Shown: positions 14,711-32,100 of the stretch, in pieces
Numbering within the stretch: position 1 is the first letter of the stretch
Layout: every line of letters starts with the position of its first letter
Assembly (NCBI GenBank): GCA_013202385.1
Contig: JABMOT010000194.1
Location: 1 to 35,174 of the forward strand
Source: Fidelibacterota bacterium
GTDB taxonomy: Bacteria; Fidelibacterota; UBA8477; JABMPR01
Reading direction: 5' to 3'
Length of the DNA: 35,174 nt
Made by a program: the position numbers and the translations under genes
Notes under the pieces: generated by a model
Databases searched by the model: none
Told to the model about the DNA's origin: nothing
Seen by the model: only the letters and a program-made list of their open reading frames with translations

Positions 14711-15001
14711 GACTGCTCTGATGGTCAAAATGAAGCAGGAAACCATGATGCTGAGCCTGCCTGCCAAACCGTAGTCCTATTGCGCAGACGGGTCGAAACA
14801 TTTTGCTCTCAAAAGAGATATCTTCATAAAAGAATTACCTCTGGCAGAGGTTCCCCCTCGGTGAGCGCATGGATGACCAGACAATTTTATTCCATAAATA
14901 GCGCCAATCGGAGTCTTTGATAATGCGGTGTATATATTTCATAACGATTAATCTTTCATATCGGCTATTTTAACGACATCTACAATACACAGGAGGTTGG
15001 C

Positions 15002-15850
15002 ATGGAATGGGTTTTATCGGTTCGAGCTGAATGGTTGACGCCAATTATGAAGACTTTCACTTTTCTTGGGGATGAGGAATTTTTCTTGCTATTTCTGCCC
15101 TTGGCTTATTGGTTATGGCGGAAAAATGTTATGGGTCGCGTGGGGATGGTATTACTTTTTACCTTTGTCCTCAATGCAATCATCAAAGGCATTTTTCACA
15201 TCCCAAGGCCAGAGTTGATTGAACATCTGGTCAAAGCCGATGACTGGTCATTCCCCAGTGGTCATTCACAAGGGGCCATGGTTCTCTGGGGCTGGCTAGC
15301 CTACGAATTGAAGGACCGGCGCGCTTATTTACTGGCCGGATTGCTCATTGCTGGCGTCGGTTTTTCCCGGGTATATCTTGGTGTTCATTATCCCAGTGAT
15401 GTTTTGGGTGGATATGCCATTGGTCTGGCAACCCTCTTTTGCTACGCCTGGATGCTCAAACATGAGCCCGTGGGCTGGCAGCACCTTGGACCGACTCGGC
15501 AGAGCTTGATTATTTTCATTATACTGATGGGATTATTCATGTTGGTCCCTGAATTATCAGAAGTGGCCATCAAGGGGGGTGCCGCTTTTATCGGTTTTCT
15601 CACAGGCTACCTGCATGAAAAGAAATATCTGTGCTCAACGCTTAAGCCCGGTATGAATCTGGTATTATCTAAACTGGTGCTTGGCGTTACCGGAATCGTT
15701 CTTATCTGGCTGGGGCTTAAACAAGTTTTTGTATCGGTCGGCTATGCTACAGATATGGCCATCTTTATTCGCTATACACTTCTGGGAGCCTGGATCAGTT
15801 ATGGAGCACCCTATTTATTCTGTCATTTTGGCTGGAATGAGGGGAAGTGA
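15002..15850 (+). CDS. PAP2-superfamily membrane phosphatase
   Basis: All three PAP2 motifs present: 'KGIFHIPRP' (KX6RP), 'FPSGHS' (PSGH), 'SRVYLGVHYPSD' (SRX5HX3D). SD AGGAGG upstream. Confidence 0.92.
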   Translation: MEWVLSVRAEWLTPIMKTFTFLGDEEFFLLFLPLAYWLWRKNVMGRVGMVLLFTFVLNAIIKGIFHIPRPELIEHLVKADDWSFPSGHSQGAMVLWGWLAYELKDRRAYLLAGLLIAGVGFSRVYLGVHYPSDVLGGYAIGLATLFCYAWMLKHEPVGWQHLGPTRQSLIIFIILMGLFMLVPELSEVAIKGGAAFIGFLTGYLHEKKYLCSTLKPGMNLVLSKLVLGVTGIVLIWLGLKQVFVSVGYATDMAIFIRYTLLGAWISYGAPYLFCHFGWNEGK

Positions 15851-16143: not shown

Positions 16144-16172
16144 TTGGAAGGGTACCCATATTGGGTTATAAT
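16144..16172 (+). promoter_or_regulatory. Sigma-70-like promoter TTGGAA-N17-TATAAT
   Basis: Perfect -10 hexamer and near-consensus -35 at optimal 17-bp spacing, about 78 bp upstream of ATG 16251. Confidence 0.65.
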
Positions 16173-16250
16173 CCTTGTCCAATGAGAATGCTCAACACAC
16201 TATTTCTGAATAATCCAAACTCTAAATTGAGATAAAAAAGGACTTTAATT

Positions 16251-18827
16251 ATGAAAGCTTTAAATGGGGTTGTCATCCTCTGTCTAATGACGACGCTGGC
16301 ATTTGGTCAATTGTTTATCAATGAGATCGATTATGATCAACCAGGAACTGACGCTGGTGAATTTATTGAATTGGCAGGACCTGCTGGCACTTATAACAAT
16401 GTTACCCTGGATCATTTTAATGGGAGTGGTGGGGCGCTGATTTGGACCTTACCTCTGCCTTCATTTACTTTAGCAGATGAATCAAATGGATATGGCTTCT
16501 ATGTAGTTGGTGCAACCGGGGTCCCCAATGTTGATCACGCAATCCCAGGTTCTATTCAAAATGGGGGTGACTTCCCGGATGGTGTCGTTCTTAAAATTAA
16601 TGGAAACATTGTAGATGCCGTGGCCTATGAAGGTGAAATGAACGATGCTGATGGTAATCCCATGGAAAGCATTCTTGGAGATTTCGCAGGTATCGATTCT
16701 TCAGCCAGCAGAATTGGAGCCGATGGATCACTATGGGAGTATGGCCCTTTTTCACCAGGTACGATCAACACCAACCAAACCCTTGACCCCAATGCGAATT
16801 CTAATCCCATTGCCAGCGCAGGACCAGATCAAATCGTTGAGAGTGGTGCTGCGGTGACCCTGGATGGAAGCGGCAGTTCAGACCTGGATGGCACTATAGA
16901 GACTTACCTTTGGGAACAGGTGTCTGGCACGACGGTTACGATCAATAATGCCAACGCTGCAGTAGCCAATTTTGTTGTCCCTAATGTAACAGAAACCAGT
17001 AGCTGGGTGTTCTCACTCACCGTCACAGATAATGAAGCTGGAACTGGAACCGATGAAGTGGGCATTAGTGTTTTGTTCAGCATGAACATTGCCCAGGCCA
17101 GAGCTCAGGCAATTGGGACTCTCGTGACGGTTATCGGGCTGGTTAATAGTACGAATTTATCCAGCTCAGGGACCGACTACACCTTTGAGGATGAAACGGC
17201 AGGTATCGATCTTTATATAGCATCTGTGCCTGTGTCCTTAAACCTTGGTGATGAGATCATGGTCACCGGTGTTACCACAAACTATTTGGATAAACTTGAA
17301 CTCGTACCCGCAAGTGCATCCGATGTATCCATCATAAGTACAGGGAATACCTTACCTGATCCGCAGGTCATAACAGTTGCTGAATTGTTGGCCAACGGTG
17401 AGAACTATGAAAGCGAATTAATTCGCATTGATGGTGTGTCCTTCGCCGCAGGAAATGATTCCTGGCCTACAGCCGCAGGAAATGCCAATGTAAACATTAC
17501 TGACAACGGATCAGATCTTACCGTCATGCGCATCGATGATGAGACCGAAATTGATGGAACGGCAGAACCCGTATGGCCTGTGGATCTAATCGGAATTGGC
17601 TCCCACAATGCAGGTGTTTATCAGATTACACCTCGCTTGCTTAGCGACTTTTTGTCTAATGTTGTTCGACCCACTTTTGCAAACGCCACACACGCTCCTG
17701 CATTCGTTACATCCAGCAACGAGATTACTGTGACCATCGATATTATTCCAGGCGATGAGACTCAAAGTATTGCTTCAGCTATCATTATGTACGGTGTTGA
17801 TGGCACCTTGCTCAATGAGAGTGGGATGTGGCTGGATCAGGGGAATACCTGGATGGGAACCATTCCAGCTCAGGAACCCAACACTTTTCTTGCTTATGAA
17901 ATTATCGCAACCAGCAATGATGATAGCGAATTCGATTCGTATACTTATGAAATCGCCATTGCCTCAACGGAACTGACAACTATTGCCTCAATTCAAGCCA
18001 ATCCTGTCGTTGGTCAGGTTGTGACCATTGATGGCATCGTCACAATCGGCGGTGATCTCCTACAACCCCCCTATACAAAAGCATACATTCAGGATGCTTC
18101 AGGCCGTGGGATCAACCTGTTCAATTACGATGCGTTACCGATCAATCGGGGTGACCAGATAAAGGTTGTTGGTGTAGTTGATGTTTTCTCTTCGACTGTG
18201 GAGATTACAGATTTTTCATATGAGCTCATGTCGACTGGCAATGACCTTCCTGCGCCTATAATCTTGACCCCCGGTCAAGCAAATGCTGCCTCGTGGGAAG
18301 GAACGTTCCTAAATATTTCGGGCAAGGTTACTGAAACCTGGTTTGCTGGATTTGGTACCAATGTGAGGGTTGGAGATGCATCTGACACCACCATGATTCG
18401 CATCTGGGAAACTACGGGTGTAGACACTTCTCGCCTGCGGGTTGGGACTGATTGGTCATTCCTGGGGGTTGCCAGCCAATATAATGGGGTATTTCAACTG
18501 CTGGTAGCCTACGATGAAGATATTGTAAGCACTTCAGCCATTGATTTTGTTGATTCAAAACCGGCAAGTTTTGGATTGAATCCTGCTTATCCCAATCCAT
18601 TTAATCCCAGCACCACATTGAGCTGGAATTTATTGGAAGCCGGAGCGCTGTCTCTTCGTGTTTTTGATATTCGCGGTCGCGAAGTGGCCCATCTGGCTGA
18701 AGGTTTTAGCGAAGCGGGTCAATTTTCGATGAATTGGAATGCCTCTGAGCTGAATTCAGGAGTCTATTTTATCCAGCTGAATACATCGAGTAACTCAGCC
18801 ATTCAGAAAGTAATGCTGATTAAATAA
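16251..18827 (+). CDS. Secreted multidomain protein: lamin-tail-like, PKD/K319L-like, OB-fold-like modules, C-terminal T9SS sorting domain
   Basis: Signal peptide; 'FINEIDYDQPGTDAGEFIELAGPAG' (LTD); 'ASAGPDQIVESGAAVTLDGSGSSDLDGTIETYLWEQVSG' (PKD-like); 'TIASIQANPVVGQVVTIDGIVTI...AYIQDASGRGINLF...GDQIKVVGVV' (OB-fold-like); 'AYPNPFNPSTTLSWNL...LRVFDIRGREV...SGVYFIQLNTSSNSAIQKVMLIK' (T9SS). Confidence 0.8.
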   Translation: MKALNGVVILCLMTTLAFGQLFINEIDYDQPGTDAGEFIELAGPAGTYNNVTLDHFNGSGGALIWTLPLPSFTLADESNGYGFYVVGATGVPNVDHAIPGSIQNGGDFPDGVVLKINGNIVDAVAYEGEMNDADGNPMESILGDFAGIDSSASRIGADGSLWEYGPFSPGTINTNQTLDPNANSNPIASAGPDQIVESGAAVTLDGSGSSDLDGTIETYLWEQVSGTTVTINNANAAVANFVVPNVTETSSWVFSLTVTDNEAGTGTDEVGISVLFSMNIAQARAQAIGTLVTVIGLVNSTNLSSSGTDYTFEDETAGIDLYIASVPVSLNLGDEIMVTGVTTNYLDKLELVPASASDVSIISTGNTLPDPQVITVAELLANGENYESELIRIDGVSFAAGNDSWPTAAGNANVNITDNGSDLTVMRIDDETEIDGTAEPVWPVDLIGIGSHNAGVYQITPRLLSDFLSNVVRPTFANATHAPAFVTSSNEITVTIDIIPGDETQSIASAIIMYGVDGTLLNESGMWLDQGNTWMGTIPAQEPNTFLAYEIIATSNDDSEFDSYTYEIAIASTELTTIASIQANPVVGQVVTIDGIVTIGGDLLQPPYTKAYIQDASGRGINLFNYDALPINRGDQIKVVGVVDVFSSTVEITDFSYELMSTGNDLPAPIILTPGQANAASWEGTFLNISGKVTETWFAGFGTNVRVGDASDTTMIRIWETTGVDTSRLRVGTDWSFLGVASQYNGVFQLLVAYDEDIVSTSAIDFVDSKPASFGLNPAYPNPFNPSTTLSWNLLEAGALSLRVFDIRGREVAHLAEGFSEAGQFSMNWNASELNSGVYFIQLNTSSNSAIQKVMLIK

Positions 18828-18838
18828 TTAAAATACTG

Positions 18839-18874
18839 GCTGCGAGAGGCGCCTTAGAGGGCGCTTCTCGCAGC
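18839..18874 (+). terminator. Strong intergenic hairpin, possible terminator or RNA-processing/stability element
   Basis: GCTGCGAGAGGCGCC-(TTAGAG)-GGCGCTTCTCGCAGC: 15-bp stem with one G-U pair. No T-run follows. Confidence 0.6.
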
Positions 18875-18924
18875 GAATAAAACACCAATTGTTGAACCCT
18901 ATTAGCTGAAACAGAAGTGAGAGA

Positions 18925-20910
18925 ATGAAGAGAAAACTAAGCCTGGTTACCCAATTTCTGCTGGTGCCATTCCTGATGAATGCAGCAGATCACTTGAGCA
19001 TTAGCGAAGTGGTTCTGCAACCTTCCGCAGGTGAATATATCCTTCTGACCAACAACACTGGCAGTACAGTCAATCTGAACAACTATTACTTGACTGATGC
19101 TACGGATAAATCAAATGGCAAATATTACTATAAGCTGCCCAGCGCCGTTGATTACTGGTCAGGTAGCTCCACTGATTTTATCGCTCGCTTTCCGGATACA
19201 ACGTTAACGACAGGCTCCTCACTTTATCTAAGTTTAGCCCGGCATTCAGATTATTTCGCAACATATGGGATCAACGCTGCCCTCTCCCTTAAAGAGGACA
19301 TGCTTAGTGCTGTGGATGGTGTTGTTACTATTGGCAGCTCACCCAACGCCAAATTAAATAATGACGTGGCTGAATCTCTGATCCTGTTCTACTGGGATGG
19401 AAGCTCAGCAACCGTGCAAGATGTGGAATATCTGGTCTGGGGTACCAATTATACAAACGCATCGGAGCATATGTTGGATAAAACTGGTCTGGGGACCTAC
19501 CTGGCTGATACTCCCGTAGCCAACCAATCTTTCATGCCCATGCATTTTAATGGCTCGAAATTGATCCGAAATAGTGGCGAAGGTACTGAATCAAGTACCG
19601 GTGGAAACGGTATAACCGGTCATGATGAGACCAGTGAGAATCTGGCAGATACCTGGTCGGTTGTCGATCTTACAATCGTGAAACCCAGCATCGCCAACAT
19701 TCTGGCCACGCCCCCTGACCCTGAGACCAGCGAGGACATCGTTATATCGGCCAGCGTGACCGATGATGTGGGAATCAGTTCTGTCACCCTGACCTACACT
19801 TTTCCGAGCGCTACTGGCTCCCCGGTGAGCCAGACCATGACCAACACAACAGGAGATACTTACTCCGCCACCATCCCTGCTATCGCAGAAGAGGGGACAT
19901 TATCCTATTATATCACTGCTCTCAATACCAGCGGGCTGACCAAAATCTCAACCATTCGTGGCATCACCATTGCGGATCCACCGCCTCCAGTTACTATTCA
20001 AACGATTCGAGAAAATTTTAGTAGTTATCTGGGACAAACCGTCAATCTAAATGTAGTGGTTGCTATCGGATCAGGCATTACCCGAACTGATCGCTCAGAG
20101 GTCTATGTACAGGATGAATCAGGTTACGGATTGGTGCTCTCGGCAACGGGATTGTTAAGCCCGCCTCTGGTGCAGGGGGATTCAATTAATATTCTGGGCG
20201 AGGTCGCAGAGTTTGGCACTACCAAGCAGCTTCAAAATTTTTCAACCAGTATTTTGGCAACAGGACGACCTGTGCCGGCTATTCGTACAATCACCAGTGC
20301 TGAAATGGCTGCCGATGCAAATCAGGGCAGTTTTGTAAAAGTCTGGGGTGCCGTTCAATCCCGCGCCGATGGAGTGGGAGGTGGAAGCAATATTGGTCTT
20401 GAGGATGCAGATGGTTTGCTTACCATCCGTATCTGGGACACAACCCATCTCCTGGATGATTTCACTGCTGACAGTCTGTTGCAGGTTGGGAATCTGGTTC
20501 AAGTATACGGAATTGCCAGCAATTACAACGGTGATGGTCAGTTACTTGCCGCCTATGCTGGCGATATTCAACCCTACAAGGAGGGTGAAGATAGTGATGG
20601 CGGTACCAGACTGGAGGTTGCACCTTTTCCGTTTGTCCCTCAACTGGCTGAGAATATTCAGTATGTTTATCGATTCCCGGCGAACTCCCGCGTGACCCTG
20701 AGGATATTTGATCTGTCAGGTCATCTGGTGACAACTCTGTTTGAAGATTATCGAAGTTTATCACTTGAAGTGACCAAAACCTGGGATGGTCGTGATGAGA
20801 TTTATCAGCTGGTGGCACCTGGAACTTATATCATGCACCTGGAAACTGTGAATCGGAGCACCGGTAAAATTTTAACAGATATGGCTCCTGTAGTCATTGG
20901 GAGCAGATAA
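18925..20910 (+). CDS. Secreted protein: lamin-tail-like, Ig-like and OB-fold-like domains, FlgD-like C-terminal Ig module
   Basis: 'HLSISEVVLQPSAGEYILLTNNTGSTVNLNNYYLTD' (LTD); 'TIRENFSSYLGQTVNLNVVVAI...VYVQDESGYGLVL...GDSINILGEV' (OB-fold-like); shares 'IRIW(E/D)TT...VG...G(V/I)AS.YNG..QLL.AY..DI' with the upstream CDS; C-terminal 'RVTLRIFDLSGHLVTTLFEDY...WDGRDE...APGTYIMHLE'. Confidence 0.75.
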   Translation: MKRKLSLVTQFLLVPFLMNAADHLSISEVVLQPSAGEYILLTNNTGSTVNLNNYYLTDATDKSNGKYYYKLPSAVDYWSGSSTDFIARFPDTTLTTGSSLYLSLARHSDYFATYGINAALSLKEDMLSAVDGVVTIGSSPNAKLNNDVAESLILFYWDGSSATVQDVEYLVWGTNYTNASEHMLDKTGLGTYLADTPVANQSFMPMHFNGSKLIRNSGEGTESSTGGNGITGHDETSENLADTWSVVDLTIVKPSIANILATPPDPETSEDIVISASVTDDVGISSVTLTYTFPSATGSPVSQTMTNTTGDTYSATIPAIAEEGTLSYYITALNTSGLTKISTIRGITIADPPPPVTIQTIRENFSSYLGQTVNLNVVVAIGSGITRTDRSEVYVQDESGYGLVLSATGLLSPPLVQGDSINILGEVAEFGTTKQLQNFSTSILATGRPVPAIRTITSAEMAADANQGSFVKVWGAVQSRADGVGGGSNIGLEDADGLLTIRIWDTTHLLDDFTADSLLQVGNLVQVYGIASNYNGDGQLLAAYAGDIQPYKEGEDSDGGTRLEVAPFPFVPQLAENIQYVYRFPANSRVTLRIFDLSGHLVTTLFEDYRSLSLEVTKTWDGRDEIYQLVAPGTYIMHLETVNRSTGKILTDMAPVVIGSR

Positions 20911-20945
20911 TTGTGAATTGTGAATTGTGAATTGTGAATTGTGAG
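20911..20945. repeat. Heptamer tandem repeat (TTGTGAA x4 + TTGTGAG)
   Basis: Five consecutive 7-bp units beginning immediately after the stop codon of the CDS at 18925. Confidence 0.92.
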
Positions 20946-20947
20946 AG

Positions 20948-21301
20948 ATGAGTAAAAATGTGATTAAAGACAAGAGTTTTGCATTTGCTCTCAGAACGAT
21001 CAAGCTTTATCAATTGCTGGCTGATCAGAAAGAATTTGTCTTAAGCAGACAGTTGCCCAAAAGTGGAACTTCAATCGGAGCACTGGTTAGAGAAGCTGAA
21101 CATGCTGAAAGCAAGGCTGATTTTATTCACAAAATGGCTATTGCTCAAAAAGAGGCCAATGAGGCAGATTATTGGATCGAGCTCCTATACCAATCAGAAT
21201 ACATAAACAAATCTTCCTTTGCGTCTATATCCAGTGATTTAAATGAAATTAACAAATTATTGGCATCCATCATCATTACTTCAAAAAGTCGGAAAAAATG
21301 A
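20948..21301 (+). CDS. Four-helix-bundle protein of the 23S rRNA intervening-sequence (S23/IVP) family
   Basis: 'KDKSFAFALRTIKLYQLLADQKEFVLSRQLPKSGTSIGALVREAEHAESKADFIHKMAIAQKEANEADYWIELL', a typical S23/IVP pattern. Confidence 0.88.
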   Translation: MSKNVIKDKSFAFALRTIKLYQLLADQKEFVLSRQLPKSGTSIGALVREAEHAESKADFIHKMAIAQKEANEADYWIELLYQSEYINKSSFASISSDLNEINKLLASIIITSKSRKK

Positions 21302-22248
21302 AAACAAATAATTTACCATTTACAACTTACCATTCATTGCTTAAGAACAGTTGGGCAACTTTTGTAATCACATCGCTTCTCACAGGTCTTTCCTATGGTC
21401 AGGTAACAAGTGATGTGCCTTATAAAACGCCAGCCATGGGCGCGCTCATGGGGTCCAATCTGGCAATCTCATTTGATGGGAGTAGCATTCTCTTGAATCC
21501 GGCCATCCTCAATACCGTAGAATCAGGATTTGTCATGGCTGGTACACAACATGTCTTTAATCAAAAATTCCTCGGTCACACTGTCCTGACAACCGGGTTC
21601 AAGCTCCCCAAAAATCTTGGAAGTCTTGGGTTAAGTTTTGAGTCCATGAATGTCTCTTACCGAGATGAGAACCTGGTGGGTGAAACTGCGGTGGGGTTGT
21701 CCCACGCTTTTAATTTGCAGAAAGATCGCATTTCAGCCCTTAATATGGGTTACACCTTGAAATATCTGTCCGTTGATTATGGTCAATCGGCAGGCGTTAG
21801 CGGCGATGGCTCAGATGGTATGGACTTGGGAAGTTCTGCTGCCTTTGGTGTCGACCTGGGTTTTCAAGCCACTTTATCCAAGCGTCATTGGTTGGGTGTT
21901 GTTGTTCACAATGTAAATCGACCACAGATCGGATCTGGTGCGACAACTTCAATGCTGCCCAGGGATGTTCAGGCAGGCTTTTCCTATGCACCAACTCGAC
22001 AGGTCATCACCAGTTTTGCCCTGGTCAGCGGACCGGGTTTTGCCCCTGAGTTTCATGCAGGACTGGAGTATGAGTTAAATCCTTATCTCACACTGCGGTC
22101 GGGAATCCAGTCGCAACCCAATCGCTTTGGTACTGGATTTAGTTTTCATGCCCGCGGCATCGGTCTGGATTACGCCATAGTCACACATCCCGTTTTGCCG
22201 GCGACACACCAATTGTCAATTGCTTACGATTTTGAAGGTCCGTTTTAA
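21298..22248 (+). CDS. PorV/PorQ-like outer-membrane beta-barrel protein
   Basis: 'PAMGALMGSNLAISFDGSSILLNPAIL' N-terminal pattern, repeated beta strands, ATGA overlap with the upstream ORF. Confidence 0.65.
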   Translation: MKTNNLPFTTYHSLLKNSWATFVITSLLTGLSYGQVTSDVPYKTPAMGALMGSNLAISFDGSSILLNPAILNTVESGFVMAGTQHVFNQKFLGHTVLTTGFKLPKNLGSLGLSFESMNVSYRDENLVGETAVGLSHAFNLQKDRISALNMGYTLKYLSVDYGQSAGVSGDGSDGMDLGSSAAFGVDLGFQATLSKRHWLGVVVHNVNRPQIGSGATTSMLPRDVQAGFSYAPTRQVITSFALVSGPGFAPEFHAGLEYELNPYLTLRSGIQSQPNRFGTGFSFHARGIGLDYAIVTHPVLPATHQLSIAYDFEGPF

Positions 22249-22258
22249 GGGGCAGCTG

Positions 22259-24763
22259 ATGAAAGACCATTTGAACCATACATTCATTTCATTGTTGAAG
22301 ATCATTTTACTGCTCCCTTGCCTTATCTGGTCGGGGCAGTTGGATATCAATAATGCCTCTCTGGATGCGTATCAGGATCTTCCCTTAACACCCATACAGA
22401 TTCAGGCAGTTTATGAGTATGTCCAGTATCATGGTCCCCTTGAGAGCATCTATGAGTTGGTCAATGTTGAGGAATTATCACCCTGTGACATTGAGGGCAT
22501 AAAAGCCTTGCTCCTGTTGCGGCCAGATGATTCTGCAGCTACCAACACCCGATTGGAGGATCAATATCGCAAGGTGGAAGATTGGACTTCCACTGAAGGA
22601 GCTAGCGAAGGTCTCATGGAGTTATGGCTGGAGCGCCTGGCTGAGCCTATGAATGTGAATACGGCCTCCTATGAAGATTTGGTCTCCCTGCAGAATGTGA
22701 GTCCCATTGACGCTGTTGCGGTGTTAAAACTCAGAGAAGAATCAGGATCCATTGGATCCGCCCGGTGGTTGAGAAATGCCACAGGACTATCCTATTATGG
22801 TTATCGTAATTTACGTGATTTTGTAGCTTTCAGCGAACCTGAGGGTGGACAATGGCATGTCTGGTACAACCTGGTGATGAAGTCAATTCCTTCAACGACT
22901 TCCTCAGAGGAAGAAACAGCACCTTCTTATTATGATCCCAATGCCAACTACCATCTGGAAGGCTTCCCCAACTCACCGGATATCCTCCATAAATTTTCCC
23001 TTAGCAATTCCAGCCATTGGAAGACGGGTTTTTCCTATAACCGTCAGCTGGGTGAGATTAATCGTTATTTTGGAGATGGCAATATCCCTGAAATCAAAGC
23101 CCATCTTACGTTTTCAAATTTGGATGCAGGACCCTTCCATCTGGATCGTCTAGTTCTGGGGAATTTTTCTGCAACGATGGCCCAGGGTGTGGTATTTGAA
23201 AGCACAGATTTCAGATCCCCTCGTCGCTCAGGCTATGGCTGGAACAAACGTGCCCATGGTGTATTCTCAGACTTGTCGCGCAGTCAGGAATATGCCCAGA
23301 AAGGGCTTGGTATTCAGGGCTCTCTTTTTGATCGCGTCAAGTTGCTGGGATTTGTTTCAAAAAATGATCGGGATGCTGTTTTAAATCCAGATGGCGAGTC
23401 ATTCACAAGTCTGATCACCCTTTCGCCGCGTTCAAATATTTTGGATGGAGGACGTGAAACCATCCTCATGGAATTGAAAGATGTTGTGAATGAGGTCACT
23501 TATGGCGGTAATGTCCGCTTTGAGTTCTCGCCCGGAACTTTTCTGGGTCTTTCCTCATATGAGAGTCTCTATGACAAAGAGCTGAGACCGGAACCACTTC
23601 TGTCTATTGTGGATGCTGCAAATACGGGATTGTTCTTAAATAGTTCAGGGAACGGTGGCGATACTGAAATCGCTGCCATGCATGGCTCCTCAGCAAAGTC
23701 TGGTCTTTGGGCTGATGCAAAGGCTAATCGCCGAGTCCAAGGGCTGGAATTCAGTACTGTTGTGAGCAATCTGGCACTTCAGGTTGAGTGGGGCGTGCTC
23801 GATAAGGATAGCGAGATTTTGTCTGTGAAGCAAGACCCTCAAGCTCTGGTTGCCAATGCCTTTCTGCAGTTTGATAATTTCAATTTCATGGTTCTATACC
23901 GTGATTACGATCTGGGTTATGATAATCCCTACCAGCGCAGTTTTTCAAATTACCAGCGCTATAAGAGCAGTATTTTTGAGGATGATTTCTACTTGAAATA
24001 CAGCTACCTCTCCAATTTGTACACTGGAGCAGCACAGCCACAAGCAGAACGAGGCGTTTTTATTAGCAGCCGCTACCAGATTCACAGAGCCTGGGTTCTA
24101 ACCACAAATTTTGATACCTGGACCCGCGTGGCAGATGGTTCACGTTATTATCGCACTGTCGCTACAGCTGAATATCGTCCAACCTTTAATTATCGCTTTA
24201 ACATTCGCCAAAAATGGCAGGCTCGCGGGAGCTTCAACCTGTTCTCACCGACAGGTTATGAAAACCGGGAAACGATTATTCGAGCAAGAATGCGTTTAGG
24301 TGGATTCGATCAGCTCCAGGTCCGTATTGTTAACTCGATTACCCAATTTGATCCTCGTCGGCGCTTGACCATTGATCTTGCGACAGGACTAAGCAATGTT
24401 TCGCCAGTTGGGCAGGCCGCCAGTCCTGGCAATGCTCTTGGTTTTGACCTGATACACAATTTCAATCCCATGTTCAAGGTGATTGGTTCGGCCATGTATT
24501 ATAAAGGCTTTTTCTGGAATTTTGAAGATACAGATTTTGGCGTATTCGATGCTCCCAACGGTTCGATTCGTTGGTGGGTGACTGTCTTTTCAAGATTGGG
24601 AAATCACTGGGCGGTTCGGGCAAAACTAACCTGGGACGATGGGGCAGCCACAAGTAATTATGCCTACGGATTGGTGCAGTACGATCCCAGGGCACTACAG
24701 AAAAACGTCTCCTGGTTTGGTGAGGGCACAGATTTTCGGCTCCAATTGGATTATGCATTCTAA
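22259..24763 (+). CDS. Helix-hairpin-helix (ComEA-like) N-terminus fused to outer-membrane beta-barrel
   Basis: Start re-chosen at ATG 22259; 'LDINNASLDAYQDLPLTPIQIQAVYEYVQYHGPLESIYELVNVEELSPCDIEGIKALL' and 'MNVNTASYEDLVSLQNVSPIDAVAVLKLREESGSIGSARWLRNATGLS' are HhH repeats; the rest is aromatic beta-strand-rich and ends 'FRLQLDYAF'. Confidence 0.75.
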   Translation: MKDHLNHTFISLLKIILLLPCLIWSGQLDINNASLDAYQDLPLTPIQIQAVYEYVQYHGPLESIYELVNVEELSPCDIEGIKALLLLRPDDSAATNTRLEDQYRKVEDWTSTEGASEGLMELWLERLAEPMNVNTASYEDLVSLQNVSPIDAVAVLKLREESGSIGSARWLRNATGLSYYGYRNLRDFVAFSEPEGGQWHVWYNLVMKSIPSTTSSEEETAPSYYDPNANYHLEGFPNSPDILHKFSLSNSSHWKTGFSYNRQLGEINRYFGDGNIPEIKAHLTFSNLDAGPFHLDRLVLGNFSATMAQGVVFESTDFRSPRRSGYGWNKRAHGVFSDLSRSQEYAQKGLGIQGSLFDRVKLLGFVSKNDRDAVLNPDGESFTSLITLSPRSNILDGGRETILMELKDVVNEVTYGGNVRFEFSPGTFLGLSSYESLYDKELRPEPLLSIVDAANTGLFLNSSGNGGDTEIAAMHGSSAKSGLWADAKANRRVQGLEFSTVVSNLALQVEWGVLDKDSEILSVKQDPQALVANAFLQFDNFNFMVLYRDYDLGYDNPYQRSFSNYQRYKSSIFEDDFYLKYSYLSNLYTGAAQPQAERGVFISSRYQIHRAWVLTTNFDTWTRVADGSRYYRTVATAEYRPTFNYRFNIRQKWQARGSFNLFSPTGYENRETIIRARMRLGGFDQLQVRIVNSITQFDPRRRLTIDLATGLSNVSPVGQAASPGNALGFDLIHNFNPMFKVIGSAMYYKGFFWNFEDTDFGVFDAPNGSIRWWVTVFSRLGNHWAVRAKLTWDDGAATSNYAYGLVQYDPRALQKNVSWFGEGTDFRLQLDYAF

Positions 24764-24820
24764 AGGATGCCAGATATGAATACGATGACAGTTCAGAATT
24801 TGAAGTATAAGAAGAATACT

Positions 24821-26155
24821 ATGACTTATCTAAGTAAACCGCTTTCCCGATTGCTACTATTTGCTGTTATGTTGTGCTCCCAGGGTCATTCTCAAAGTTA
24901 TTTCAACGCACTTTTTATGAATCAGTATGCTTCGACACACAGTAGTGATATAGCTCTGGCAGGATCCAACACCTCATCCTATAGTAACCCTTTCAATACA
25001 TTTAGCAATCCTGCCAACCAGGGCAAGCTGAAGGGGGTGCAACTCTCAAGTGCCTTAAATGTGCTCAGTATAAATGAAAACCGATCTTACCCTGCCATTG
25101 ATCAATTTGGTGACCGAGTAACCGATAATATCTATGTTGTTTCCCGAGGGCTGCAAAACAGTTTTTCTGGGGGTGTATCCTGGGGCTCAGGATCTCTGGG
25201 GGTATCGGCTGCCAGTATGCCGTTTAGCACGCCTGCTTTCTTTTATAAGGAAGAGCTTAGAGGAAGTCTTTATGCTCCAAACATCAATCGTGATCCATTA
25301 ATCGGCTATCATCACATTGAACAATCAGGCATCATCCAATCAAGCGGCGCAAGTGCAGGTTCCAGCTTTGGATCTTGGTCTGTCGGCCTTGCACTAAGAA
25401 TGTTGCATGGGATTGGATTAGAAAACCAATATGGTGTATCAGTTCTGGATAGTACAGACGTTTCGGCTCTGGCCAGTGCTAGCACCCTGCTAAAGACCGA
25501 ATCCTGGGGTCTGGAAAATTCCCCCCTAATCATCAATTTTGGAGTGATCAAAGATTTTGGTCTGCATTTGCGTGTTAGCGCCAGTTTTCAGTCCGGATAT
25601 TCTCTTGAATCTAAAAAACAGGGTGCCTTACCATTTTTCGAAGCAACGGAAGATCTTCCCTTGATTCAATGGGCTTCAGATACTGTTGGTGTGATTATCG
25701 ATGTTCCTGCTCAAATAGAATTGGGTCTGCGAATGAAACCATCGAATCCCTTGCCCACCTCAATCTATATCACGCTGGCGTATCAGGACTGGACCCAATA
25801 TGGTGTGACTTATAGCGATTCACTCTCCGGCGAAATTTCCGCATTTGATTTTCCCCTTCAGGAGACTTTCACCATCAGAGGGGGGATTGAACACTGGGTG
25901 AGTGATAATGTACCCTTCAGAGCTGGACTGGTTTGGTCTGAGTCGCCTATTGCCGGTGAACTATCACAAAGCCGATTTAGCGCTGGTTCCGGCTGGACAA
26001 GTGGACCCTTGCAATTTGATGTAGCTGTCCAGCTTTTTTCGGTTGAATATAATTCCATTGATCTATTCATTCCGATTGGATTGACACCTAATGCAACCGA
26101 AAAAATTCGCGAAACTCAAACCAGCTATTCAATCAGTGTGAGCTACAGCCTGTGA
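24821..26155 (+). CDS. Outer-membrane beta-barrel protein (PorV/FadL-like)
   Basis: Signal peptide from ATG 24821; 'YASTHSSDIALAGSNTSSYSNPFNTFSNPANQGKLKGVQLSSALNV', terminal 'YSISVSYSL'. Exact start (24767 or 24821) uncertain. Confidence 0.65.
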   Translation: MTYLSKPLSRLLLFAVMLCSQGHSQSYFNALFMNQYASTHSSDIALAGSNTSSYSNPFNTFSNPANQGKLKGVQLSSALNVLSINENRSYPAIDQFGDRVTDNIYVVSRGLQNSFSGGVSWGSGSLGVSAASMPFSTPAFFYKEELRGSLYAPNINRDPLIGYHHIEQSGIIQSSGASAGSSFGSWSVGLALRMLHGIGLENQYGVSVLDSTDVSALASASTLLKTESWGLENSPLIINFGVIKDFGLHLRVSASFQSGYSLESKKQGALPFFEATEDLPLIQWASDTVGVIIDVPAQIELGLRMKPSNPLPTSIYITLAYQDWTQYGVTYSDSLSGEISAFDFPLQETFTIRGGIEHWVSDNVPFRAGLVWSESPIAGELSQSRFSAGSGWTSGPLQFDVAVQLFSVEYNSIDLFIPIGLTPNATEKIRETQTSYSISVSYSL

Positions 26156-28116
26156 AAAAGTTTCCTCTCAACAGTCTGATGATATTGATTTTGGTGTTGC
26201 TTATTTCCCAGCCCGGGATGCTGGACGGCCAGACTCGCACTTATCACAAAAAATTCGAATCAAAAGCATATCTCAAGGTTCATCTTTTGTTTACCAATGA
26301 TCTTCACGGTGGCATTGCACCTTCGAAAGCCTGGTTTATGAATCCTGAATTTCCACCGGACCTGGGCGGTGGGGCATCCATGTACCGATACGCACAAGAA
26401 ATCAGGGCTGAAGCCGCCGCAGAGGGTGCAGAGGTTTTACTGCTGGATGGTGGAAATATTTTTCAGGGAACCCCCCTGGGTATGGCCGACTCAGGTCGAG
26501 TGATGATCGAGTGGATGAACGAGATGAATTATGATGCTTCCGTGATTGGAATGCAGGATTTTATGTTTGGAGTGAGTAACCTTGCCGATCTTGATAGGAG
26601 CTCAAAATTCCCCCTTCTTGGCGCAAATATCGAGTCTGCCAATTATGATCCACAGGATTATCTAATCAAAGATTTCCAGGGGGTCAAACTGGGTGTGTTC
26701 GGTCTGACCAGCAGCAACACTCCGCACAAACTATTACCTGAACAAACCAGGGGAGCTGTATTTACCCCTGAAATTATGACTGCCAAAGAGCAAGTTGCTC
26801 TCTTGAAATCGAAGGGTGTAAACTGTATCATCGGTCTTTCACATCTAGGCGTTCCCTACCAGCGCGAAGATGAATTCGCTGAATTTGTAGACACCTATGA
26901 GGATGAAAGTGACTTTGGCAACAGAGTCATCACAAATCTTGAATTGGCCCATGTTGTGCCCGGAATGAATGTCATTGTATCTGGCGGCACAAACGCGGGT
27001 TACAATACACCTTGGGAAGATCCTCAGACTCACACACTGATCCTTCAGGGTTATGGAGGCGCCAGCAATATTGGCCATGTCATCTTGTACATTCACAAGG
27101 AGACAGGTACTCTGGCAGGGTATCGACAACCATTTTCCAGGGGTGTGCTTCTCACACTCAGCACTGATGATGCGCAACCGGATCCGGCCATGGAAAAACG
27201 ATTGCTTGCTCTGGAAAAAAGCAGAAGTGAGATAAAAAAACGCGATTTTTCAAGGGTGAAAACGATCCAGGCGGAAATAGTTTCAGCTCCACTTCTAAAT
27301 CGCTGGGACTTTAAAGTTCCGAATTTCAATCAGGATAATTTTCTGGACATAGCCACATGGAACATGGAGTGGTTCCCCAAATCCAAGGACAGCACCATCA
27401 CGGCAGTGGCTGAAATCATGCAAAAGGTCAATGCAGATGTCTATGCCGTTCAGGAGATTGGGAGTCTGGAACAATTTGCAGCCATGCTGGAGCTGTTGCC
27501 GGCATATGGTTTCCTGGTGACCAGACAGTCCTCATTTTTTGATCAGGCGATTATTTACAAAAAAAGTGTTCTTCAGTTCGTTGGTCGAGAAGAGCCCTTC
27601 GCCCATGCTGATTATAATTTTGCCGGTCGTCCTCCGCTACGGGCAGATTTCTTGTGGACAGCTGGTAAAGAACCCGTACCTATTTCAATCATTGATCTCC
27701 ATCTCAAGTGTTGCGGGAATGGATTGGAACGTCGCAAAAATTCAATGGAAGAACTCCATGAATATTTAAGCCTGGGGATGGAATGGGGTGAAGATAATAT
27801 CATTGTTCTGGGAGACTGGAATGACCAATTGGACGATGTCGGCATGCTCCAAAGTTTTACAGCATTTCTGGATGATCCCGACCATTTCCGTTTTGCAACG
27901 GCTCGCATTGCCGGGGATGTGAAGCAAGCTTCCTATCCAACCTGGCCCAGTTTTCTGGATCACATTCTCATTGGGCGGGGATTTTTTGACGAATTTGAAA
28001 ACAAGAGTACAATTCAGACTTTACCTGTTGGCGAATGGTTGGGAAGCTGGGAAAATTATGAACTCATCATTTCTGATCATCGACCCGTCCTTATGCAACT
28101 CAATATGTCCAATTAG
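26152..28116 (+). CDS. Exported fusion: degenerate 5'-nucleotidase-like metallophosphatase domain + endonuclease/exonuclease/phosphatase (EEP) domain
   Basis: GTG start in GTGA overlap with the previous stop. N-domain 'LLFTNDLHGGI', 'LLDGGNIFQGTP'; C-domain 'IATWNMEWF', 'AVQEIGS', 'IIDLHLKCC', 'VLGDWNDQLDD', 'SFLDHILIG', 'ISDHRPVLMQL'. Confidence 0.88.
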   Translation: MKKFPLNSLMILILVLLISQPGMLDGQTRTYHKKFESKAYLKVHLLFTNDLHGGIAPSKAWFMNPEFPPDLGGGASMYRYAQEIRAEAAAEGAEVLLLDGGNIFQGTPLGMADSGRVMIEWMNEMNYDASVIGMQDFMFGVSNLADLDRSSKFPLLGANIESANYDPQDYLIKDFQGVKLGVFGLTSSNTPHKLLPEQTRGAVFTPEIMTAKEQVALLKSKGVNCIIGLSHLGVPYQREDEFAEFVDTYEDESDFGNRVITNLELAHVVPGMNVIVSGGTNAGYNTPWEDPQTHTLILQGYGGASNIGHVILYIHKETGTLAGYRQPFSRGVLLTLSTDDAQPDPAMEKRLLALEKSRSEIKKRDFSRVKTIQAEIVSAPLLNRWDFKVPNFNQDNFLDIATWNMEWFPKSKDSTITAVAEIMQKVNADVYAVQEIGSLEQFAAMLELLPAYGFLVTRQSSFFDQAIIYKKSVLQFVGREEPFAHADYNFAGRPPLRADFLWTAGKEPVPISIIDLHLKCCGNGLERRKNSMEELHEYLSLGMEWGEDNIIVLGDWNDQLDDVGMLQSFTAFLDDPDHFRFATARIAGDVKQASYPTWPSFLDHILIGRGFFDEFENKSTIQTLPVGEWLGSWENYELIISDHRPVLMQLNMSN

Positions 28117-28130
28117 TCAGTAGCGTTTTA

Positions 28131-29039
28131 ATGAGGCGAATAAGGCTATTTTGTCTGCTGCCGCTGGTCGCTGTTCTTTTTGTGACTTGCGCAGAACCGG
28201 TCATCTCAAGCATTTCCTCTGGACCTCGGATTCCGCGGATTGATGATGATACGGCTATTTCCATTATTACCTGGAACATTAGAGAAATAGATGCCAATGT
28301 GACCCAGAAGACAAAAGATCGGGTTCAGCTAATTATGGATTCCTTAGATGCTGACTTTTACTGTCTGCAGGAAATTGAACAAAAATCTGCTCTCCAGGAT
28401 ATTGTGGATAATTTGGATAGATATTCCGCCATTATTTCGAATGAAACTCGATATGATCACCTTGCTATAGTATATAAAAATACGTCCTTTCTGCCTGTGC
28501 TTACAGAGGATTTGTTTAAGAATGATGATTATAATTTCGCCGGTCGGCCTCCATTGATGGTGAATTTTGTATACAGTGTTGGAGCTGATGAGCATATCCT
28601 CAATTTGATCGATTTGCATATGAAGTGTTGCGAAGCCAATCCAAGTGATCTGGAACGCCGCCATGCTGCCACGAACATGCTTCAGGAATGGCTGCGCGAC
28701 AAGCTGGCATGGGGGGATAGCAATTTTGTGGTCGTAGGTGATTGGAATGATGATATTTATGACTCAGATGGTTCCGGTGAATACGCTTTCGAAGCTCTGC
28801 TTGAAGATCCAGAGAATTTTTACTTTGTTACGGATTCATTGGCTGCCACAGGTACTGCCCGGAATTCATCCTACCCGAGTTGGCCCAGTTTTTTGGATAA
28901 TATTCTGATCAGCGAATCTTTGTTCGATGAGTACAAAAATTCTACAGTTGAAGTGCTTCGCCTCGATGAAGTATTTGGAGACTATTCATCGGTTGTTTCC
29001 GATCATCGACCCGTGTTATGGTCCTTTACACCCAATTAA
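28131..29039 (+). CDS. EEP-family nuclease-like lipoprotein, paralogous to the C-terminal half of the preceding CDS
   Basis: Lipobox 'VLFVTCAE'; 'IITWNIREI', 'CLQEIEQ', 'LIDLHMKCC', 'VVGDWNDDI', 'SFLDNILIS', 'VSDHRPVLWSF'; shared 'DYNFAGRPPL' with the upstream gene. Confidence 0.88.
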   Translation: MRRIRLFCLLPLVAVLFVTCAEPVISSISSGPRIPRIDDDTAISIITWNIREIDANVTQKTKDRVQLIMDSLDADFYCLQEIEQKSALQDIVDNLDRYSAIISNETRYDHLAIVYKNTSFLPVLTEDLFKNDDYNFAGRPPLMVNFVYSVGADEHILNLIDLHMKCCEANPSDLERRHAATNMLQEWLRDKLAWGDSNFVVVGDWNDDIYDSDGSGEYAFEALLEDPENFYFVTDSLAATGTARNSSYPSWPSFLDNILISESLFDEYKNSTVEVLRLDEVFGDYSSVVSDHRPVLWSFTPN

Positions 29040-29120
29040 GCGCAACCCCAAGAATAGCAATCTGATCCTTCAACGGGGAATGATTCCCATTGATTTCAGG
29101 AATATAATCTGGCGGTCGTT

Positions 29121-32100
29121 TTATCCATCATAATCAGGATTGAGCGGGAATTCGATCAAAAATTGAGCCCCAGTATCCCCATTGTTCAAAACTACAGATC
29201 CCATGAGTTGATGCTCAGACAGTATTTTTACCAGGTAGAAGCCAAGCGAATGAACTGAGTCCCATACAACAGGTTTGGGTATGCCGATTCCATTGTCTGA
29301 AATCTCTAGTTGTATTCTGTCCTTATTTAGCATGGATAAACGCACAACAATCTGCTTGTCCTTTCGGGCGGGATCAGGGAAGGCATATTTCTGGGCGTTG
29401 GTCACCAGTTCATTGATGAGGAGACCACAGGGTACTGCAATGTCCACCGACAGGTTGATCTGTTCAACTTCGGTGATGATGTTTACCGGAACCAAGGGTT
29501 GTTTGAATGCAGATTGCAACTCACTGGTTAGACCATGGATATAGGTGGAAATGTCTATATTGTCCAATTCCTGGGAACGGTAGAGTGCATCGTGAACCAG
29601 CGCCATGGAGTTAATACGGTTTCTGAATTCGTCTAAGGTCTGAATTGTTTTTGGGTCGTCAATACCTGCCTTTTGTAATCCCAGGAGACTGGCAATTATC
29701 TGGAGATTATTCTTAACGCGATGGTGGACCTCCTTGATCAGGAGTTCTTTCTCGTTCAAAGATTTTTCTAAAAGATTTCGGTGCTGCACAACCTCGGTAA
29801 TATCATCCAGAGATATCATGACATGATTTGTTGAGCCATTTTCTCCCTTCAAAGGATAGACCAAAATATGGGCAACTCTGTTGCTGCCATCGGGAGCCAC
29901 AAAGCTCACCTCGGGGGCTTCAACAATTCTACCAGTCAGGGCGGCCTTAAAATGTTTCCCCAGGTTTAATTGTTGGGCAAGCGGATCAGTATTAACATGA
30001 TAATCGCGTATGATATCATCAGTACTTTTTGCAGCCCATAGTTTTTCCCAGCCCTTATTCAGGTTGGTAATGTTTCCCTCAGTATCATGGATGGCCATAG
30101 GTGTTGGAGATTGAGAAATCACGGCTCGGAAATAGTCGGCTCTAACCCGAGCGCGTTTGTGGGCTTCTCGTCTCGAATTCACCTGAGCATTCAGTTGAAT
30201 ATTGTGTCTTTCCAACTCCGTACTCCTGCGCACCAAGTACGTAGTTCTCAATCGGTACAACATGGTGAAAGCCAGCAGGATGATCATAGAAACTGCCAGA
30301 ATAAACCACCAGGATTTATAAAATTGAGGCAGCACCATGATTTGAAGCGAAATCCCAGCTTCATTCCAGACCCCATCATTATTGCTGCCCTTCACGTGAA
30401 GGGTAAAATTTCCGGACGTAAGATTGGTAAAAGTGATAATGTTTTGATGACCGCTATAGCGCCATTGATTATCAAAGCCCTCCAGGAAGTATGCATACCT
30501 GTTGCTCGGAGGGTGATAAAAGTCCAGGCTGGTAAACCGGATGCTGAAAAAGAGATCACCGGGCAGTAACATGATTTCAGGAGCTTCTGTCATCGATTCC
30601 TGGAGCACAAAACGGCCATGGTACAGTTCATTAACCTCTATGGGAGTGTTCATAATGGAGAGGTCGGTGAATTGGATCGGTGGAATGTTTTGATTTTCCT
30701 CAATTTGAGTCGGATCAAACCAGGTAATCCCCTCGATTCCGCCAAAGTAGATCAATCCGTTGTGATCCATGCAGGCCGCTGGATTAAACTCTTTACTCAT
30801 AATTCCATCGGCCAGACCATAATTGTGAAACGATTCCTGGTCCATATCAAAACGCGATAAGCCGTTGTTGGTGCTCATCCAGAGAAACCCATTTTCATCC
30901 TCGAAAATTGCATAGATGGATTCGTTGAGTAAGCCCTGAGCCTTGCCAAAATTTTGAAAAGTCTTTGTACTTGGATTAAATTTTGAAAGACCACCACCAT
31001 AGGTTGCTATCCAGAGATAACCCTGTGTGTCTTCATGAACTGCCATGACATCATTGTTTGGTAAGGAGTATGGATTATTGGCTGAACTCTTGAATTGCTG
31101 GAGCGATTGACTCTCAGGATCAAAGGCGATGAGTCCCTCATTTTCTGCGCCCATCCAAAGCAGGCCTTTTGAATCCACAAAGATGGATAAAAACGAAAAG
31201 CTTTCCATCTTTACGCCGTTGAAACTTGGTTCGCTAAAGGTTTCAAACTGCATGGTAACAGGATTCAGCATGATAAGCCCTGCTCCCCAGGTTCCTATCC
31301 AGAGAAAGCCGTCCTTATCTTCAGCAAACACGAGTATATAGTCACTTTGAAGCCAATCTTCTTGTTCAGGTTTTGGAACGATATGCTCAAAAGTAGTAGA
31401 TCCTGACCTTCGTACATCAAGAATAGTACTGGCTGAACTAACCCATAAATTGTCGTGGCGATCGATAAATATATCTTGAAGACTATTATCGCTAATGCTA
31501 CCGGGGTCTGCAGGGTCATGTTTGAATACCTCAAAGCTTTGGTCCACAGGATTAAACAGTGTGAGTCCTTCTGACCAGGTGGCTATCCATAGGCGCCCCA
31601 TGCTATCTTCTCTTATCCTCAGTATGCGGTTGTCGTGGAGACCTTCCGGATTGAGAGGGTCATAACTTATGTTAAAAAATTTCTTCCGATTGCGAGCAAA
31701 CTTGCTGACACCTCCACCGGATGTCCCCACCCAAATGATATCACCATCATCATACAGGCACCGAATGATATCATCTTTTAAGGCGGATTTGTCATAGATC
31801 TTTCTGTCGATGTGATCAATTAGGACACCTTGCGAGTTTAAGACCAGGATGCCTTCTGAATCGGTCCCGACCCATATTTTATCGGGGCTCTCCTGAATCA
31901 TCGTGAGAGCGCCAGTTTCAGGATAGCCAGGATTTATATCAGAACCGAACCCGTGATGAATAAAATGGCCACTTCTTCGATCGTAAAGATCCAGCCCGCC
32001 CCAGTTTGTACCAACCCAGAGTCTGTTATTGTGGCCGTCGTAAGTTTCAAAAATGAGATTTACATTATCATCGAAGAGAGACTCTGATATCTCAGGATCA

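Follow-up and report, generated by a model that had tools for sequence, protein, structure and literature searches.

Which process is served by a run of eight same-strand envelope genes that unites secreted proteins, three outer-membrane barrels and phosphohydrolases? The question is raised by a stretch of 35,174 nucleotides (nt) from a Fidelibacterota bacterium (contig JABMOT010000194.1 of assembly GCA_013202385.1; hereafter the window), which lies on contig C172 of a draft genome of 3.17 Mb and 72% completeness. The largest of the barrels is preceded by HhH domains, and we refer to it as the HhH-barrel. A check of the open reading frames (ORFs) bore out the layout given in the original prediction: eight ORFs occupy the + strand from 16251 to 29039, with overlaps at 21298 (ATGA) and 26152 (GTGA) and intergenic gaps of 10 nt (22248/22259) and 14 nt (28116/28131). 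Six to seven of these neighbouring genes constitute a conserved outer-membrane module of two poorly known phyla, Fidelibacterota and Calditrichota. The window is assigned to the former, also called Candidatus Neomarinimicrobiota/Marinimicrobia, through its named relatives. Whether this module serves the acquisition of nucleotides or nucleic acids is, in our judgement, an evenly balanced matter, for the reasons set out below.

The HhH-barrel was surveyed in 120 relatives, 40 Fidelibacterota loci were fetched, and a scan with one genome per species covered the best 80 of 123 confirmed loci. The two locus sets overlap in genomes and hence are not independent, and counts come only from loci with enough flank. 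Loci were picked via two peptide motifs of the barrel, and Fidelibacterota copies served to train the hidden Markov models. The genomes, nearly without exception, are drafts from uncultured organisms, in which absence is uncertain. With this scope, the HhH-barrel was present in 55 (single-sequence search) or 56 (profile) of the 120 Fidelibacterota genomes, always as a single full-length copy or as fragments that fit one copy; a second full-length copy was not seen in any of them. Among Calditrichota, 34 of 40 genomes carried it. In both phyla the same core order is kept: an LTD/OB protein, a PorV-like barrel, the HhH-barrel and a FadL/BamG-like barrel. The PorV-like gene was found at the locus in 54/54 Fidelibacterota and 18/18 Calditrichota, directly upstream of the HhH-barrel in all 72 testable loci, the LTD protein gene (50/50 and 18/18) is as constant, and the FadL-like gene (57/57 and 17/19) nearly so. 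Neighbouring genes within the module are separated by median gaps of -1 to 14 nt, and the core order persists in the two phyla down to 36-40% identity. The core LTD/OB protein, LTD2, and the HhH-barrel also display near-identical presence and absence across the 120 genomes; full-length LTD2 nearly always comes with the barrel, and where it does not (G067, G042 and G069) the match sits at a contig end, is divergent or seems not to be an orthologue. The recurrence of one gene order in two phyla indicates that the locus is more than a product of chance, and the operon-like unit that had been proposed from the letters alone thereby stands: co-occurrence of these families is conserved well beyond the window. 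Meanwhile, the second LTD protein (LTDPKD), the EEP lipoprotein (EEP2) and a four-helix bundle are variable members. On the barrel tree, records titled Caldisericaceae (L127) and Flavobacteriales (L121, L136) fall inside Calditrichota and Fidelibacterota, and these taxon labels are probably wrong.

The core is followed by a phosphohydrolase gene in 48 of 51 Fidelibacterota and 10 of 18 Calditrichota loci. Because several Calditrichota carry the four-gene core with no adjoining enzyme, the phosphohydrolase is an accessory to that core. In Calditrichota and in one Fidelibacterota branch, the gene 3' of the FadL-like barrel gives a full 5'-nucleotidase with both the Metallophos and the 5_nucleotid_C domain; its C-terminal domain matches PF02872 at 1e-34 in L107 and 2e-32 in L126, and the nearest solved relatives are the nucleotidase 3ivd, the bacterial 5'-nucleotidase 2z1a, UshA and CD73. 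The other Fidelibacterota branch, to which the window belongs, has an EEP domain in place of this C-terminal domain, and PF02872 is absent from the window protein. On the barrel tree, a single change suffices for the passage from 5'-nucleotidase to EEP type (SH-aLRT support of 91 by a quick method). The enzyme was originally a complete UshA-type 5'-nucleotidase, and its C-terminal domain was exchanged once for EEP.

The exchange was accompanied by a change of the active site. Five metallophosphatase motifs were tested (D-x-H, GD, GNH(D/E), H and GHxH). The site is lost in 37/37 EEP-type proteins, a class in which L125 and L092, the latter cut short by a contig end, are counted by domain content against a crude script rule that mis-sorted both. 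The motifs are intact in 16 of 22 orthologues of the 5_nucleotid_C type, including all 12 from Fidelibacterota and 4 of 10 from Calditrichota; L107 and L144 are examples of intact orthologues. At the UshA motif positions the window fusion reads TNDLHG, LDGGN, GMQDFM, LSHLG and SGGTNAG, departing from the UshA-type motifs by what we take to be D84N, N116M, H117Q, H252G and Q254N in E. coli numbering. The EEP catalytic residues (N, E, H, D/N and SDH) are unchanged in both EEP proteins of the window and in 36/36 alignable fusion orthologues; within the motifs TWN, QE, HxK, GDxND and SDH, the sole variants are one SWN and one GDLND, with the same catalytic letters. These window proteins match PF03372 above its cut-off, and an EEP profile searched against the PDB retrieved DNase gamma and DNase I along with other EEP enzymes, while phmmer with a single EEP domain gave no match there. 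Further matches were found to MnuA nucleases and, weakly, to ExeM/NucH. Judging from these residues, catalysis appears to have shifted between domains inside one conserved operon slot. The retention of the dead phosphatase fold after the loss of its site suggests that it has a structural or binding role. As a 5'-nucleotidase, the ancestral enzyme points independently to nucleotide or nucleic-acid substrates.

The original prediction placed nucleases at the cell surface, which is doubtful for the fusion enzyme. Both this enzyme and the 5'-nucleotidase seem to carry a signal peptide, a lipobox was found in 0/62 copies, and no tail of the type IX secretion system (T9SS) was detected on the copies that were profile-searched. 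As both signals are missing, the simplest reading is that these enzymes would act in the periplasm. EEP2 is a lipoprotein in the window, and across its orthologues a lipobox could be recognised for 10 of 27 copies. In G016 (942 amino acids) and G094 (1002 amino acids) EEP2 is fused to the preceding enzyme, which argues for a functional tie between the two. At one locus (L116:16673-18292), the place of the EEP lipoprotein is taken by an EEP protein that also carries LTD and a type I dockerin domain.

For the HhH-barrel, AlphaFold2 predicted two HhH domains behind a signal peptide, followed by a barrel with about 24 strands (pLDDT 81.6, pTM 0.79), and Pfam likewise places two HhH_3 domains before the barrel. 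Foldseek retrieved generic barrels only (the FimD/PapC usher and TonB receptors), with query-normalised TM below 0.35, and profiles matched the PDB solely through the HhH part (EEPD1 and ComEA). No account of the HhH-barrel or the module turned up when the literature was searched; this is a barrel family with neither a described function nor a convincing solved structural relative. The original prediction called it DNA-binding. Canonical HhH motifs hold DNA phosphates through glycines in their hairpins (GhG). In hairpin 1, none of 62 sequences has a glycine at either GhG position, and a third-position glycine occurs in 2/62, 0/62 and 0/62 for hairpins 2, 3 and 4. The net charge of the first domain (HhH1) is -9 in the window, with a median of -4. 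As a positive control, a separate ComEA encoded in the window's own genome has the hairpins GVG and GIG. With no canonical GhG, an acidic HhH1 and an intact ComEA in the same genome, the DNA-binding label is unsupported, and we rejected the identification of the HhH part as a ComEA-type DNA receptor.

The module lies in type IX secretion territory, as indicated by T9SS-type tails, by the presence of SprA in 118/120 genomes and by the position of the module, which is sometimes beside an sprA cluster. LTDPKD ends in a type A sorting tail (TIGR04183, 41.8 bits for a cut-off of 23). The tail of LTD2 bears only a resemblance to this model (13.3 bits); it is strongly conserved and was PorU-tail-like in 17/33 orthologues. 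Foldseek matched LTD2 to generic Ig proteins and, weakly and at low TM, to PorU and PorZ. The domain calls of the original prediction held for LTD, the HhH-barrel, the UshA-like-EEP fusion and the EEP lipoprotein (Pfam/NCBIfam), and also for the PorV-like and FadL-like proteins, although these two fall below cut-off. The OB-fold is sub-threshold in the window protein and was recovered as PF01336 at E<=0.001 in 18/33 orthologues. The PorV-like protein of the window scores 47.3 bits against NF033709 (cut-off 90), and 21 of 22 orthologues match it at E<=0.001. Orthologues of the FadL-like barrel matched PorV_fam (41/54), BamG (24/54, up to 5e-22) and FadL (5/54). The window copy of this barrel had no match to NCBIfam models at E<=0.01 (BamG NF053685 has a cut-off of 250 bits), and with 23.3 bits for Toluene_X (cut-off 29.7) it falls short of the FadL/TodX transporters. 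These profile comparisons place the two smaller barrels in that branch of the FadL superfamily which holds PorV and BamG, and not with the FadL transporters. We also rejected the FadL-like barrel as the BAM subunit BamG, given the lack of a match in the window copy and the better candidates elsewhere in the genome. The best of these, L170 (G000:C89:2183-3301) and L171 (G000:C219:13061-13867), are outside the window and both below the BamG cut-off.

In three genomes (G036, G031 and G101) the module directly follows an rdgB-sprA-M28-asparaginase cluster, and in G028 and G094 it shares a contig with it; the gene names in this cluster other than SprA and M28 are our own reading of the sequences. 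Seen at L156-L161, the run into the module in the three genomes comprises rdgB, sprA, an M28 peptidase, lipoproteins, a PorV family gene and asparaginase. This cluster may hold further T9SS parts of Fidelibacterota. Published FadL-family barrels hold T9SS cargo, probably via the cargo tail, as PorP/SprF does with type B C-terminal domain (CTD) proteins (PMC9143113), and in BAM the FadL-family barrel BamG scaffolds a surface protein (PMC12611786). By analogy with these barrels, the PorV-like partner of LTD2 may keep it at the cell surface.

Based on these findings, we give even odds to the module serving nucleotide or nucleic-acid acquisition. The HhH-barrel, the PorV-like and BamG-like scaffold barrels and one or two T9SS-exported LTD/OB proteins would form one complex, in which the surface proteins probably stay on their cognate PorV-like barrel via an uncleaved tail, comparable to PorP/SprF with type B CTD. 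The LTD/OB proteins would most likely catch nucleic acid or nucleotides, the large barrel would most likely admit fragments or nucleotides into the periplasm, and there the exported phosphohydrolase would most likely cut or dephosphorylate the substrate for uptake of nucleosides and phosphate. The nucleosides could then cross the inner membrane via a concentrative nucleoside transporter, a gene present in 108/120 genomes. The enzyme swap within a conserved envelope module suggests an undescribed route for taking nucleotides or nucleic acid from the surroundings. A bolder version, which we advance tentatively and regard as doubtful, is that the module represents an outer-membrane machine of a new class, set apart from TonB-dependent/SusCD systems, secretins, BAM and the SprA translocon. 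Its barrel of about 24 strands would bear HhH domains that lie in the periplasm and do not bind DNA, flanking scaffolds of the PorV and BamG type would hold T9SS-exported LTD/OB receptors, and the whole would move nucleotides or nucleic-acid fragments across the outer membrane.

Several observations weigh against a role in nucleotide acquisition. The four-gene core stands with no adjoining enzyme in 8 of 18 Calditrichota loci, and the Calditrichota locus L175, from a single-contig genome, has the core and no enzyme. Where Calditrichota do have the enzyme, its metallophosphatase site is degraded in 6 of 10 cases. Together, these two counts imply that the core does not everywhere serve to cleave phosphoesters. 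The HhH domains show no DNA-binding hallmarks, and the EEP relatives retrieved from the PDB include a sphingomyelinase and a mannosyl-6-phosphatase. With the barrel so frequent in Calditrichota, a standing envelope function seems to fit better than an optional nutrient system, and nucleoside transporters, ComEC and secretins occur so widely that they do not discriminate. The strongest objection is the core that lacks an enzyme in nearly half of the Calditrichota loci, as it keeps alive the view that the four core genes encode a machine for outer-membrane assembly in general, or one associated with the T9SS, with the phosphohydrolase as a passenger or envelope-maintenance enzyme. We consider this rather unlikely, though it is the most serious of the rivals. 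Its plan would be comparable to the Bacteroidota BAM with the BamG barrel and the BamH canopy, and it draws on the near-universal barrel of Calditrichota, found there also with no enzyme, on the kinship of the second barrel with BamG/PorV, on the PorU-like tail and the PorU and PorZ fold matches of LTD2, on the adjacency to the rdgB-sprA-M28 cluster and on the retention of an inactive phosphatase domain. However, of the Fidelibacterota genomes that keep SprA, over half lack the module, so it is not needed for the T9SS. The operon also has no POTRA, chaperone or sortase, better BamG candidates exist elsewhere in the genome (though all are below the BamG cut-off), and the repeated association with nucleotidase and EEP would be left unexplained.

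If the enzyme instead cleaved another phosphoester, such as NAD, UDP-sugars, phosphorylated glycans or lipids, the module would acquire that substrate. The UshA family does include a UDP-sugar hydrolase and an NAD nucleotidase, and sphingomyelinase C and mannosyl-6-phosphatase are among the EEP relatives, but the sole trait common to both enzymes of the slot is nucleotide or nucleic-acid chemistry. The EEP domain also matches the ExeM/NucH and MnuA nucleases, and LTD/OB is an accessory part of ExeM; we regard this alternative as improbable. Natural transformation, with the HhH-barrel as outer-membrane DNA channel and its HhH part as periplasmic DNA receptor, is suggested by the ComEA-like architecture and by ComEC in 98/120 genomes. 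It is very unlikely in view of the non-canonical, acidic HhH domains and the separate ComEA described above. Secretins were found in 50/60, co-encoded nucleases would destroy incoming DNA, and ComEC does not clearly divide genomes with the barrel from those lacking it. That these are neighbouring envelope genes of unrelated function would fit the variable LTDPKD, EEP2 and four-helix bundle, but is scarcely credible for a core order shared by two phyla at such low identity and with near-zero gaps. We also considered a defence system and rejected it, as PADLOC gave no matches.

Among known systems, ExeM/NucH of Shewanella (NF033681) shares LTD, OB-like and EEP domains with the module, and this model is weakly matched by LTDPKD, EEP2 and some LTD2 orthologues, so the proposal of an ExeM toolkit split over several genes fits at the domain level. 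ExeM/NucH is a single secreted polypeptide, whereas here the domains are spread over genes that stand together with those for three outer-membrane barrels and a (pseudo)nucleotidase; all matches to NF033681 stay far below its cut-off, the best from the window reaching 29.4 bits of the required 300, and none of the window proteins is an LTD-OB-EEP chain by that model. The UshA/CD73-type 5'-nucleotidase has a full-length homologue with intact motifs in the operon slot of Calditrichota and basal Fidelibacterota, while in the window lineage EEP replaces the C-terminal domain and the active site is lost. SusCD loci of Bacteroidota offer an analogy only, in uniting a surface binder, an outer-membrane barrel and an envelope hydrolase in one operon. 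The module has no match to SusC/TonB-dependent or SusD-type families, its barrel has HhH domains instead of a plug and TonB box, and its binder is exported by the T9SS rather than being a lipoprotein. The bacteria of Candidatus Izemoplasma are not known to have an outer membrane. Their loci for degradation of extracellular DNA co-locate LTD-nuclease, nucleotidase and transporter genes (PMC8289736), as in part does the module, but contain neither barrels nor T9SS. PorP/SprF with type B CTD proteins also pairs a FadL-family barrel with a protein bearing a conserved, possibly uncleaved T9SS-type tail (PMC9143113); in the module the barrel is PorV/PorQ-like and the tail PorU-like, and the binding of the one to the other is putative. 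The Bacteroidota BAM with BamG and BamH similarly sets a FadL-family barrel and a surface protein next to a large barrel (PMC12611786), whereas the module has no BamA and its FadL-like barrel in the window does not match the BamG model.

The wide retention of the core, in almost all Calditrichota and much of Fidelibacterota, together with a barrel family that lacks both a described function and a convincing solved structural relative, implies that current accounts of the FCB group omit an outer-membrane function. Should the module handle nucleic acids, it would supply a genetic marker by which the scavenging of phosphorus and nucleosides could be traced in abundant uncultured bacteria of marine and sediment habitats. 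The exchange of a 5'-nucleotidase for a dead nucleotidase joined to EEP amounts to a clean natural experiment, through which the question of the substrate becomes directly testable.

Table 1. Genes of the module region in the window, with the basis of each assignment
Feature	Position	Strand	Basis
LTDPKD: secreted; N-terminus LTD-like, with PKD, a DUF5689/OB-like region and a type A tail of the T9SS	16251..18827	+	PF22352 3e-18, PF18962 3e-11, TIGR04183 8e-11; syntenic in relatives
LTD2: surface protein with LTD, Ig-like and OB-like parts and conserved C-terminal domain like the PorU tail; core gene	18925..20910	+	LTD in 31/33, PorU C-terminus in 17/33 orthologues
Four-helix bundle of the 23S rRNA IVP family; sporadic	20948..21301	+	same place in few loci only
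PorV/PorQ-family outer-membrane barrel; core gene	21298..22248	+	NF033709 2e-12, below cut-off
HhH-barrel: signal peptide, two ComEA-like HhH domains (~27-90, ~131-190), predicted barrel 199-833; core gene	22259..24763	+	AlphaFold2
FadL-family barrel, closest to PorV/BamG scaffold barrels; core gene	24767..26155	+	orthologue profile matches
Exported fusion enzyme: inactive UshA-type metallophosphatase domain and EEP (27325-28113) with catalytic residues intact	26152..28116	+	motif and profile comparison
EEP2: lipoprotein with EEP domain (28242-29036), catalytic residues intact	28131..29039	+	lipobox VTC near N-terminus

The start of the HhH-barrel was taken as the ATG at 22259, with a TTG at 22220 as an alternative. 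A sigma-70-like site begins exactly at 16144, in a region where the count of such sites equals the shuffled expectation. On the + strand, no terminator-like site was found between the operon genes, and one is located at 29075, past the last gene. The gene of the four-helix bundle occupies the same joint between LTD2 and PorV in scattered lineages (L037/L078, L041/L085, L049 and, distantly, L126). As it is at that joint in few relatives only, it is probably not part of the machine but a visitor gene with a preferred site.

The operon is flanked by genes that are also retained in its genus. Upstream, 12845-15850 encodes a 621-amino-acid protein with no Pfam match and a PAP2 phosphatase, both kept across the genus. 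Downstream and convergent with the operon, 29121-32750 (- strand) encodes a protein of 1209 amino acids that resembles a propeller-type sensor histidine kinase and is kept in most loci of the genus; it is possible that it regulates the operon. Small opposite-strand genes also follow the module at the Calditrichota loci L126, L127, L128, L137, L149, L150 and L174. Their products measure about 125, 90, 450 and 346 amino acids, some with response-regulator-like starts, and were seen in many Calditrichota.

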